A stretch of 27,657 bases of DNA. Source: a virus. Numbering within the stretch: the first letter of the stretch is position 1; every line of letters starts with the position of its first letter. Below are positions 12,741 through 27,653 of this stretch, piece after piece. The notes beneath the pieces were generated by a model. That model was not told where the DNA came from. It saw only the letters and a list, made by a program, of their open reading frames with translations, and did no database searches. A program made the translations under genes and the position numbers. The stretch lies in IMG/VR virus record IMGVR_UViG_3300025601_000092, positions 1 to 27,657 of that record. One strand, 5' to 3'.

Positions 12741-12967
12741 TACACGCCTCCAGCGTCAATCGATGTTATTCCAGTATATACTGACAATGGCGTTCCGCCG
12801 TCAATGTTTGCCAATGTAGCCCCAGCTGCACCAGTCGCACCAGTGTTACCAGTTGGGCCTGTGGTACCCACTGATTCCCAAATAGATCCAGTCCAGCTCC
12901 ATGAACGATTTCCAACTGTATGGACATCACCAACTGTTGGTGAGTCAGGAAGATTAATGGTAGACAT
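12740..12967 (-). CDS. INLPDSP-type tail-fibre N-terminal protein with collagen-like segment
   Basis: 75 aa. MSTINLPDSPTVGDVHTVGN, then RSWSWTGSIWESVG, then GPTGNTGATGAAGATL. First gene of the nine-gene unit running to 8713; leaderless promoter at 12974-12982. Because the protein is so short it may act as an anchor for the fibre encoded next. Confidence 0.8.
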   Translation of the reverse strand: MSTINLPDSPTVGDVHTVGNRSWSWTGSIWESVGTTGPTGNTGATGAAGATLANIDGGTPLSVYTGITSIDAGGV

Positions 12968-21535: not shown

Positions 21536-21607
21536 TTGGCTCTTATATCGAGATAAAGACTGATACCTAGAAGGGTGGGTATGAGAGACATCCTAGGTAC
21601 CAGCCAA
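21536..21607. ncRNA. Possible structured RNA (nested inverted repeats)
   Basis: TTGGCT (21536-21541) pairs with AGCCAA (21602-21607). Inside it TACCTAG (21564-21570) pairs with CTAGGTA (21593-21599), and a weak TTAT/ATAA hairpin sits on the left arm. The result is a closed three-way shape of about 72 nt. The strand is undecided and no terminator follows. It could also be a protein-binding DNA site. Confidence 0.3.
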
Positions 21608-21929
21608 TATTAAGTATACCATAGGTAATTGAAGAATCAACTTGTTATCTAGCTTTTTGTAGAATATTATTCAATAAATAATCAAGGAATAGAACTTTAT
21701 TCGATATTCTTCTATGTAACATAAATCGTTATAATATTGTTATTAAAAAAAGACTTGACAAGGTATCAAAGTGTGCTACCATATAAAAGGTTGTTGTTTG
21801 TTATTATATATATTAATTCTTATTAACTATTATATAGTTTATTGAATTTATCTATATATAGTTTATATATAGATATATATATTATAGTATTATAGTAATA
21901 AAGTAAATATAAATATATAAAATCGAACT
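21608..21929. other. Very AT-rich non-coding region
   Basis: No coding frame is convincing. From about 21800 to 21910 the sequence is almost pure A/T with palindromic runs such as CTATATATAG and a TCTATATA/TATATAGA hairpin. It separates leftward structural genes from rightward early genes and would melt easily. A replication origin or transcription-start switch is possible, but no DnaA-box series was seen. Confidence 0.5.
21755..21782 (+). promoter_or_regulatory. Sigma70-type promoter, TTGACA / TACCAT
   Basis: TTGACA at 21755-21760, 16-nt spacer ending TGC, TACCAT at 21777-21782. It points rightward into the AT-rich region and runs antisense to the holin-like gene before reaching 22426. Its product is unknown: a leader of the early transcript or a small RNA. 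Confidence 0.55.
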
Positions 21930-23264: not shown

Positions 23265-23300
23265 TTAGGTATAGATAAAGAAACATAGAAAGGATAAAAA

Positions 23301-23435
23301 ATGTTTTTAGATTCAATTTCAACCTTAGTAGGTTTCTGCGAGATTTGCTCCAATGGAACACCACAAGTGTTCGTTGAGGAATTCGGACAGGAATGTTGCG
23401 AAATCTGCTACATCGCTTACGGCGAATGTAACTAG
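23301..23435 (+). CDS. 44-aa zinc-ribbon-like early protein
   Basis: Ribosome site AGAAAGGATAAAAA before ATG 23301. The product has FCEICSNGTPQVFVEEFGQE followed by CCEICYIAYGECN: two CxxC knuckles about 15 residues apart. It is paralogous to 24892-25002 (FCEICSN...TACVNCYEAYGEIN). Small zinc ribbons of early phage regions often touch host polymerase or nucleases, but nothing here decides the role. Confidence 0.7.
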   Translation: MFLDSISTLVGFCEICSNGTPQVFVEEFGQECCEICYIAYGECN

Positions 23436-23464: not shown

Positions 23465-23489
23465 AGTATCTTAGAAAGGATAAAGTAAA

Positions 23490-23937: not shown

Positions 23938-23970
23938 CTAACTATACAAAGAAAGATAAAGGATAAAGAA

Positions 23971-24111: not shown

Positions 24112-24135
24112 AATGTCAGACCCCTATGGTAAGGT
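24111..24135 (+). promoter_or_regulatory. Spacer-motif promoter a (leaderless)
   Basis: AAATGTCAGACCCC at 24111-24124, then TATGG-TAAGGT (-10 at 24130-24135) and 6 nt to ATG 24142. The promoter begins on the stop codon of the upstream gene. Confidence 0.65.
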
Positions 24136-24141
24136 AGAACT

Positions 24142-24276
24142 ATGAAGAAATCAAGAATGAATAAAGAAGAAAAAATGTTTTACTCAACAGTCCTAGCAGG
24201 CATCAAGTCTGGCAATAAGCCAGTAGGTGCAGCTTGGCTTAGGTGGATAGACTTGCAGCTCAGCAAGACATTCTAA
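24142..24276 (+). CDS. 44-aa basic early protein, leaderless
   Basis: MKKSRMNKEEKMFYSTVLAG IKSGNKPVGAAWLRWIDLQL: basic, helical. No ribosome site; -10 box 6 nt upstream. Family not recognised. Confidence 0.65.
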   Translation: MKKSRMNKEEKMFYSTVLAGIKSGNKPVGAAWLRWIDLQLSKTF

Positions 24277-24300: not shown

Positions 24301-24328
24301 AAACATACAACAAGAAAAGGATAAGCTA

Positions 24329-24592: not shown

Positions 24593-24619
24593 ATAGATAT
24601 ACAAGCAAAGGATAAAGAA

Positions 24620-25144: not shown

Positions 25145-25170
25145 AAACCTATAACCAGAAAAGGATAATA

Positions 25171-25302
25171 ATGAATTGTGGATTTTGTAAGTTTGCTAAG
25201 GCAACTGAGGCTGTATTGCTAATAGACGACACAGTGAACGCCCTGTGCCCAAAGTGTGCCTTTAGCGTTGAAGAATTTACTGTGAATGTGGGGTGTTTGT
25301 GA
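25171..25302 (+). CDS. 43-aa zinc-ribbon-like early protein
   Basis: MNCGFCKFAKATEAVLLIDD TVNALCPKCAFSVEEFTVNV: CxxC at residues 3-6 and CPKC at 26-29. Ribosome site AAAAGGATAA; this site has the longest match (12 nt) to the anti-SD loop at 26477-26488. Overlaps the next gene by GTGA. Confidence 0.7.
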   Translation: MNCGFCKFAKATEAVLLIDDTVNALCPKCAFSVEEFTVNVGCL

Positions 25303-25559: not shown

Positions 25560-25584
25560 ATACATATAACGCAAAGGATGACTA

Positions 25585-25779
25585 ATGACAAAAATGTATC
25601 GCAAGACCACCTGCAACGGCTGTGGATTTACTCAGACAGCTACCTTGTCTTACTACCTTGACGCTAAGGCGTGGAGGACTAGCCACACCCTAGCCGTTCA
25701 CAACGAGCTATGGGATAAGAAAAACGATTTGGCTAGGGGAGAGTTCTTAGACTTTCTTCTTGCTGGCAGAGTTGCCTAA
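25585..25779 (+). CDS. 64-aa zinc-finger-like early protein
   Basis: Ribosome site AAAGGATG. MTKMYRKTTCNGCGFTQTAT LSYYLDAKAWRTSHTLAVHN: C10-x2-C13-x20-H34-x4-H39, a CCHH finger layout, then a helical end (LDFLLAGRVA). DNA-, RNA- or protein-binding is all open. Confidence 0.7.
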   Translation: MTKMYRKTTCNGCGFTQTATLSYYLDAKAWRTSHTLAVHNELWDKKNDLARGEFLDFLLAGRVA

Positions 25780-25803: not shown

Positions 25804-25831
25804 AAGCTTACAAACAGAAAAGGATAAATGA

Positions 25832-26014
25832 ATGCCATACAACGCCAAAGGTTATGACCTCGCAGAAACCAGCTTGAAATTGCTAAAAGAGGAGTTCGGT
25901 CTAGCTCATTCTTACGCTAAAATGACTGGCTATCTTATTGCCAACGTTTCAGAATCAGACGCTGAAAGAATACTTGAAATAGTAAAGCAGTCAATTTCAG
26001 AGAGGGCTGAGTAA
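25832..26014 (+). CDS. 60-aa helical early protein
   Basis: MPYNAKGYDLAETSLKLLKE EFGLAHSYAKMTGYLIANVS, SESDAERILEIVKQSI. Two or three helices. No family recognised. Next ATG follows its stop directly. Confidence 0.65.
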   Translation: MPYNAKGYDLAETSLKLLKEEFGLAHSYAKMTGYLIANVSESDAERILEIVKQSISERAE

Positions 26015-26176: not shown

Positions 26177-26276
26177 GCAGATGACTACAGAAGAACTCGA
26201 ACAACTTATTTTCAAAATAGACTTGATGTTGTCAGATAATCCTGATAGACTATTTGTAACGAAAGAAGGTAGCTGA
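26169..26276 (+). CDS. 35-aa early peptide
   Basis: MTKQMTTEELEQLIFKIDLM LSDNPDRLFVTKEGS; overlaps the upstream gene by 8 nt and the next by TGATG. Helical, no family recognised. Confidence 0.5.
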   Translation: MTKQMTTEELEQLIFKIDLMLSDNPDRLFVTKEGS

Positions 26277-26407
26277 TGATTTTTTACAATGGTTTCAACT
26301 TGCTAGTAGACATAATCCTAGTATCTGCGGCAGTTCTTGTCACTCTTGGCTATGCTAAGCGTAAGTATTTCTCAACTAAGCGAGAAAGTTTTATTCCTCC
26401 TTTTTAG
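26276..26407 (+). CDS. 43-aa single-span membrane protein
   Basis: MIFYNGFNLLVDIILVSAAV LVTLGYAKRKYFSTKRES: one span (about 8-26) then a basic tail. TGATG coupling to the upstream gene. Confidence 0.55.
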   Translation: MIFYNGFNLLVDIILVSAAVLVTLGYAKRKYFSTKRESFIPPF

Positions 26408-26509
26408 GGGGTAATGAAGGGGTGAGGTCCTGAAACGATCTAACCAAGCCACCCAACAAAGATAGCACCTAGAGAGTTATTATCCTTTCGCTCTGGGTGC
26501 TATTTTTTT
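26408..26509 (+). ncRNA. Candidate regulatory RNA with anti-Shine-Dalgarno loop
   Basis: After the 26276 stop there is no gene for 200 nt. The stretch has a GGGTG/CACCC pair (about 26420-26455) and ends in the hairpin 26462-26509. That hairpin's 16-nt loop contains TTATTATCCTTT, the exact complement of AAAGGATAATAA. It could be a processed 3'-UTR RNA that occupies early-gene ribosome sites. No promoter of its own was seen. Confidence 0.45.
26462..26509 (+). terminator. Strong intrinsic terminator
   Basis: ATAGCACCTAGAG (26462-26474) pairs with CTCTGGGTGCTAT (26491-26503) over 13 positions with one U-G pair, followed by T7. It is the strongest terminator in the window. Confidence 0.9.
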
Positions 26510-26545: not shown

Positions 26546-26610
26546 TTAAGAAGTCAATTAAGAACACCTCCAAAACCCCCTAGAAAAATGTCTTACCCCT
26601 GATGTATAGT
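26546..26610 (+). promoter_or_regulatory. Spacer-motif promoter e (leaderless) with long upstream repeat
   Basis: TTTTAAGAAG...TTAAGAACACCTCCAAAA, then AAAATGTCTTACCCC and TG-TATAGT (-10 26605-26610), 6 nt before ATG 26617. The upstream part repeats that of promoter c. Confidence 0.65.
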
Positions 26611-27433: not shown

Positions 27434-27458
27434 TATTTTATAACCGAAAGGATACAAA

Positions 27459-27653
27459 ATGGCAAAATACGATGTAGTAGTTCAACTAACAGGTCGTGAT
27501 GGAAACGCTTTTGCGGTAATGGGAGCGGTGAAGTCTGCACTAAAAAAGTCTGGAGCAACCGCTTCAGAAATTAGCGAGTATCTTTCTGCCAGTATGTCGG
27601 GAGACTACGACAACCTTTTGAGGGTTGCTATGGAATACGTGGAGGTAAAATAA
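27459..27653 (+). CDS. Conserved small phage protein (LTGxDGNAF type)
   Basis: 64 aa: MAKYDVVVQLTGRDGNAFAV MGAVKSALKKSGA, then a MSGDYDNLLRVAMEYVEV end. The QLTGxDGNAF...VxxALxxxG...SGDYDxLL...V pattern is a widespread small protein of phages and some bacteria; no function is known to me. Ribosome site CGAAAGGATA. Confidence 0.8.
   Translation: MAKYDVVVQLTGRDGNAFAVMGAVKSALKKSGATASEISEYLSASMSGDYDNLLRVAMEYVEVK

Follow-up and report, generated by a model that had tools for sequence, protein, structure and literature searches.

Hairpin RNAs with loops matching the Shine-Dalgarno words of early gene blocks in uncultured actinobacterial phages: putative antisense regulators

Towards the end of the window, which is the whole stretch of DNA analysed here (an IMG/VR virus record of 27,657 bases from an uncultured actinobacterial phage), there is a hairpin whose loop is complementary to the ribosome sites of early genes. 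Is it a terminator with a fortuitous loop, or an RNA that acts on these sites? The hairpin, H2 ('site A', 26462..26503, plus strand), has a 13-bp stem with the arms ATAGCACCTAGAG (26462-26474) and CTCTGGGTGCTAT (26491-26503) and a 16-nt loop, AGTTATTATCCTTTCG (26475..26490, plus strand), with the conserved core UNAUCCUUUC, the complement of GAAAGGAUNA. Its RNA fold has an energy of -26.7 kcal/mol (z = -5.8) with the loop core unpaired in the structure prediction, and the chance of finding TTATCCTTT in a random 16-nt loop of the region's composition is about 4e-5. A U-run at 26504..26509 (plus strand) gives the window copy the look of a terminator and is not kept in most relatives. As in RNAs of the LhrC/RsaE kind, H2 is a stem-loop presenting a single-stranded anti-Shine-Dalgarno (anti-SD) sequence, as inferred from its sequence alone.

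Directly 5' of the site A hairpins lies a 43-aa gene (MIFYNGFNLLVD..., 26276..26407, plus strand). The upstream hairpin H1 (GGGTG/CACCC, 26420..26454, plus strand) presents AACCAAGC at 26442-26449 and is an accessory conserved element of site A. The complement of this word, GCTTGGTT, was not found anywhere in the window. Besides the window copy (26420-26454), hairpins with the AACCAAGC loop occur in L103 (minus strand, 6788) and L108 (6425), and in some phages such a hairpin stands without an adjoining anti-SD hairpin.

The loop of H2 is complementary to AAAGGATAA, the ribosome site of seven early genes. The window holds seven plus-strand copies of this word, each immediately 5' of an early ATG, and a single minus-strand copy, which is the H2 loop itself; 0.38 occurrences in total are expected from shuffles, none of which reached eight. 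On the plus strand, AAAGGATAA is found at 23289..23297, 23475..23483, 23958..23966, 24316..24324 and 24607..24615, before the early genes at 23301, 23490, 23971, 24329 and 24620, respectively, and at 25819..25827 before the gene at 25832, which is the first of the unit ending in H2. The SD AAAGGATAATAA (25160..25171, plus strand), before the ATG at 25171, matches the loop over 12 nt with a duplex energy of -13.7 kcal/mol. AAAGGATGA (25573..25581, plus strand) precedes the early gene at 25585, and CGAAAGGATAC (27445..27455, plus strand; duplex -15.0 kcal/mol), with CGAAAGGATA at 27445-27454, precedes the early gene at 27459. A preliminary description of the locus had reported the hairpin, its loop, the T-run to 26509 and the SDs at 25160-25171 and 27445-27454, all of which were confirmed at these positions; its claim that the loop is complementary to early-gene ribosome sites also held and was understated.

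Late genes of the window, on the minus strand, have AGGAG/GGAGG-type sites without AAAGGAT, whereas the early genes use AAAGGATAA. The median duplex energy of the loop is -10.1 kcal/mol with early leaders versus -5.95 kcal/mol with late leaders (p = 6e-4), and the mean duplex of the true loop with early leaders is stronger than those of 1000 out of 1000 shuffled loops. The 3' end of actinobacterial 16S rRNA contains UCCUUUC. This sequence is common to the loop, so the RNAs might mimic the 16S tail and mainly hit host mRNAs, in a host shut-off, rather than phage genes. However, the loop fit to the early SD word extends past the part common with 16S rRNA, from which the loop departs at UUA, where it fits the phage SD. 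Moreover, the 16S tail discriminates early from late leaders (-7.6 versus -6.9 kcal/mol) much less than the loop does (-9.6 versus -6.6 kcal/mol), and the loop type tracks the SD class of the phage, as described below. We regard host shut-off as very improbable. The earlier statement that the loop copies the anti-SD end of actinobacterial 16S RNA (UCCUUU) refers to this common part; the fit to the phage SD goes beyond it.

An early promoter cassette, AATGTCWGACCCCTRTG followed by TAAGAT/TATAGT, is repeated in the window at 24112, 24275, 25120, 25780, 26588, 26873 and 27410 and is widespread in IMG/VR. The genes at 24142, 26602 and 26902, driven by this cassette, look leaderless. A second promoter-like repeat, CGGCGTGTCGNCTTGAC, is found 5' of early genes between 23100 and 25000. 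The late genes at 12967, 8596, 5784 and 3966 (minus strand) have near-identical leaderless starts, AAAAGTATGGTAAAATA(T/C)NNNNATG, which is likely a late promoter motif. Near the start of the late operon (window ~21560-21610) there is a further conserved hairpin with the loop k-mers TCTCATACCCAC, which are some of the commonest loop words in relatives.

Relatives were retrieved blind to the loop, with the early-promoter motif and the 43-aa gene that precedes the hairpin as queries. Site A hairpins with different stems and the same loop were found in L096/L025 (loop UUUCUAAUCCUUUC), in L057, L097, L119 and L157 (loop UUUCUUAUCCUUUC) and in L044 (loop UUUUCUUAUCCUUUA). The hairpin follows the homologous 43-aa gene in several relatives, and a different gene in L097 and L119. 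Two further places with the same loop emerged when all relatives were scanned. Site B immediately follows the stop codon of a ~50-aa gene (LTVGSQFTTAKSGV...RWTTVK); upstream of it lies site C, an RNA of more complex structure. Up to three hairpins with the type-1 loop are present per phage.

In the 19 hairpins of sites A and B, 96.5% of the stem cells are paired and double-sided changes are found at 12 of the 12 stem pairs, with a covariation score of 0.884 compared to 0.26 for shuffled and 0.15-0.33 for slid controls. The loop, in contrast to the stem, is nearly invariant and stays UUAUCCUUUC. Because part of this hairpin set had been retrieved via the loop, a blind test was added: in 643 unique hairpins from loci not selected for their loop, UCCUUUC ranks first among the loop 7-mers, and hairpins with an anti-SD loop outnumber those with control 7-mers by 30 to 2. 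The thresholds for calling hairpins were chosen by hand. Further recurrent features are a 1x1 mismatch in the stem, a closing G-C pair and a pyrimidine-rich loop. By inference from these alignments, the RNA structure of the hairpin is under selection.

These data bear on the simplest explanation, an ordinary intrinsic terminator or 3'-stabilising hairpin with a chance loop match. In its favour, the window copy combines a strong stem with a T-run, and the hairpins are located in 3' untranslated regions (UTRs). However, the U-run is present only in the window and the near-identical pair L025/L096, and is absent from L057, L097, L119, L157, L044 and the site B copies. In addition, the stem sequence varies while the loop is kept, the reverse of what is seen in a terminator, and loop and SD switch together (see below). 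As the U-tail is usually lost and the loop rather than the stem sequence is conserved, the hairpin is not a conserved terminator and this explanation is all but ruled out. The label 'terminator' used in the preliminary description therefore fails as a conserved feature. The same description had named loss of the loop from a kept stem as a refutation; the opposite was found, with stems diverging compensatorily around a kept loop. It had also asked for conservation of loop and ribosome site with compensatory changes in relatives, which was found for the type-1 and type-2 loops.

Site C copies lie at 9178 in L057 (minus strand), 6656 in L084, 5224 in L141, 2403 in L196 (minus strand) and 9784 in L108. 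They form a multi-helix RNA with a AUCCUUUC loop, followed by a hairpin whose loop ends in ACGUAAAC; the copies scanned (L057, L108) have no Rfam match. A third conserved hairpin, with the loop CUUACUUCCUUUCU (complement AGAAAGGAAGUAAG) and no clear target of its own, is found in L236 (9479), L223 (10903), L219 (10113), L138 (11573) and L232 (10343).

If the loop reads an SD word, both should be found together across phages. For the first gene block the SD word is GAAAGGAUAA and the loop UUAUCCUUUC, and type-1 hairpins usually close a gene block with the GAAAGGAUAA site. In 13 records, AAAGGAT sites precede 64 of 167 genes before the hairpin and 6 of 82 genes after it (p = 8e-8). Among AAAGG leaders, AAAGGATA makes up 52% in phages with the hairpin versus 10% in phages without it (p = 1.5e-6), the latter sharing the same promoters. 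Likewise, at 80 loci retrieved by the site-B protein alone, blind to the loop, 60% of upstream leaders are AAAGGATA where the loop is present versus 8% where it is absent (p = 1e-9).

Furthermore, two records (L290 and L291, which are the same as L294 and L295) carry a homologous hairpin with a switched loop, UAUUCCUACUUUC, and their early SDs are GAAAGUAGG with no AAAGGATA. In L291, the SD GAAAGUAGGAAUA is the exact 13-nt complement of the loop UAUUCCUACUUUC. A search with this loop detected a further lineage, L296, with three GAAAGUAGG SDs and again no AAAGGATA, so there are three switched-loop lineages in total (L290, L291 and L296). L300 is near-identical to L291, and L298 lacks leaders of both classes over the short sequence available. 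Duplex energies agree, being strongest for T1 and for T2 loops when the leader is of the loop's own type. Loop type and SD word thus co-occur and co-switch in type-1 and type-2 phages, a conclusion inferred from the genomes compared. The related records do not count as independent, and the loop/SD statistics carry no correction by a tree; moreover, leaders and gene starts come from a simple script with a heuristic gene finder, so that spurious ORFs are included.

Alternatively, the loop could be bound by a protein of the phage or the host, its likeness to an SD complement being secondary. The pyrimidine-rich loop and the recurrent 1x1 mismatch and closing G-C pair would agree with this, but a protein site fails to predict that UUCCUACUUUC loops occur with GAAAGUAGG SDs and UUAUCCUUUC loops with GAAAGGAUAA. 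There is little to recommend this alternative over pairing of loop and SD.

Most type-1 phages examined carry a second hairpin further downstream, with the loop UUUCCUACUUUC. The SD of this second block is GAAAGUAG(GAAA), and the type-2 leader form is GAAAGUAGGAAA, the counterpart of the type-1 leader GAAAGGAUAA. On the map, class-1 SDs are followed by the type-1 hairpin, then class-2 SDs (GAAAGUAG) and finally the type-2 hairpin. Over ten records, class-1 and class-2 SDs stand at 34:10 upstream of the type-1 hairpin and at 4:37 downstream of it (p = 1.8e-10); past the type-2 hairpin there are almost no SDs of either class. The energy interaction was exceeded in none of 5000 within-record permutations. 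The SD words are thus segregated by block, as inferred from the order of sites in these records. With up to three same-loop hairpins per phage, a second loop type and a second block, the system is larger than had been claimed.

The pairing could also be real and act in cis, the 3' hairpin pairing with the SD of its own transcript and altering translation or decay. In the window, the hairpin indeed lies at the end of the site A unit, whose first gene has a AAAGGATAA leader at 25819. However, the gene before the site B hairpin has GGAAGC/GAAAGAAGC leaders without GGAU, so that a long read-through RNA would be needed there. As the gene preceding site B lacks a matching SD, the matching SDs are on other units, which favours action in trans and makes the cis reading unlikely.

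There are also observations that do not fit the pairing model. In the G002 phage (L025/L129/L206), both loops contain UAAUCC, yet there are no GGAUUA sites, and no covariation of this single loop base with the SDs was found. The variant loops T3-T9 showed no preference for their own leaders in duplex energies; this includes the seemingly compensatory ACCCUUG variant in L080, for which own-leader preference was not supported. L136/L235 (one record) has kept the site-B stem and lost the loop, records with site C alone have few GGAUA sites, and one matching SD in the window (gene 27459) lies 3' of the hairpin. Complementarity to SDs beyond chance, with compensatory change, is therefore shown for T1 and T2 loops and not for T3-T9.

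Database searches did not identify a known family. At the gathering score, Rfam 15 has no match in the window, L096, L057, L097, L119, L044 or L108, and a known RNA family for the hairpin was rejected; at a relaxed threshold, a single chance match (E~1) appeared elsewhere in L057. No DNA relative of the window was found in the cultured phage collection and no cultured relative of the site-B protein, and a search with the protein of the 92-aa gene at 26602 alone gave no match. Only distant actinophage similarity was detected (DUF932, SLT_3 and tail proteins), and the window proteins point to actinobacterial phages. The genome collection contained one exact loop match, in a Bacteroidaceae MAG, which is likely due to chance. 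Two search patterns were discarded: a stem-only terminator pattern, which returned unrelated hairpins with other loops, and H1 combined with the loop, which gave mostly chance matches beyond the known members.

Several known RNAs resemble the phage hairpins in part. LhrC1-5 of Listeria monocytogenes are a multicopy sRNA family whose loops, that of the terminator included, bear CU-rich motifs that block translation by pairing with the SD (PMC4132741). Like LhrC1-5, RsaE, FsrA and other C-rich-loop sRNAs, the phage hairpins exist in several copies with SD-complementary loops. In contrast, RNAs of the LhrC kind are bacterial genes with cellular mRNA targets and a general UCCC motif, without the block-specific SD word and co-switching second loop type of the phage hairpins. 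No sequence homology to LhrC/RsaE has been shown, the loci having no Rfam match at the gathering score. The c4 antisense RNA of phages P1 and P7 is likewise a phage RNA, with loops presumed to display sequences complementary to the ribosome-binding region of a phage mRNA (PMC12197685), but it controls an antirepressor mRNA for immunity, whereas the hairpin loop matches many early genes and the hairpins lie in 3' UTRs at block ends. RegA of phage T4, a translational repressor that acts on the initiation regions of about 30 mRNAs (PMC3014915), follows a similar logic of one factor and many mRNAs; it is a protein acting on sites without clear sequence conservation, while here the SD word would be read by an RNA. 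OOP, sar, aQ, PreS and VpdS are phage-encoded antisense or trans RNAs tuning phage or host expression (PMC12197685). OOP, sar and aQ each act on a single phage gene and PreS and VpdS work with Hfq; for none of the five has a loop been described that exists in several copies and fits a shared SD word. The open-access literature searched yielded no phage system in which block-specific SDs are read by hairpins with matching loops, in agreement with the preliminary description, although this absence is no proof of novelty.

The mechanism we propose is a family of phage antisense RNAs in the 3' UTRs of early genes. Each has a long stem, in most cases containing a 1x1 mismatch and closed by a G-C pair, and on it a loop of 12-15 nt that is the complement of the SD word of one early gene block. 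As the 3' RNA accumulates, the loop would pair with the SDs of the block's mRNAs and prevent 30S binding, and mRNA decay may add to the translation block. Each early block would be shut off as the next takes over, and late genes with their AGGAG/GGAGG-type sites would be spared. The RNA structure and the loop-site pairing are well supported, by inference from sequence. Because loop and SD word change together in relatives, it is likely that antisense RNAs from transcription-unit 3' ends switch off successive early blocks by SD pairing; RNA accumulation, action in trans, repression and timing are inferred, without transcript data. For the earlier proposal of a stable RNA silencing early genes in trans as a feedback timer, the pairing is thus supported, whereas the RNA, its trans action, repression and the timing during infection remain inferences. 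Its suggested trigger, full transcription of the operon, is not demonstrated, since many and indeed most early genes have their own promoter.

A bolder reading, which could as well be wrong as right, is a translational address code, with an SD word for each block and each block closed by a hairpin RNA that reads this word in its loop. Translation would be passed from block to block by antisense RNAs from the block ends without protein repressors, and phages would change the code by switching loop and SDs together.

Most knowledge of how phages shut down early expression concerns protein regulators in a handful of models. In the present case, sequence alone makes a plausible RNA circuit readable in many uncultured phage genomes. 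The circuit predicts that a loop swap changes the target set, and loops complementary to a genome's own class-specific SD offer a route to similar circuits. If true, the SD would serve not only as a generic ribosome signal, its usual interpretation, but also as the address of a gene group, with the loops as its matching keys.
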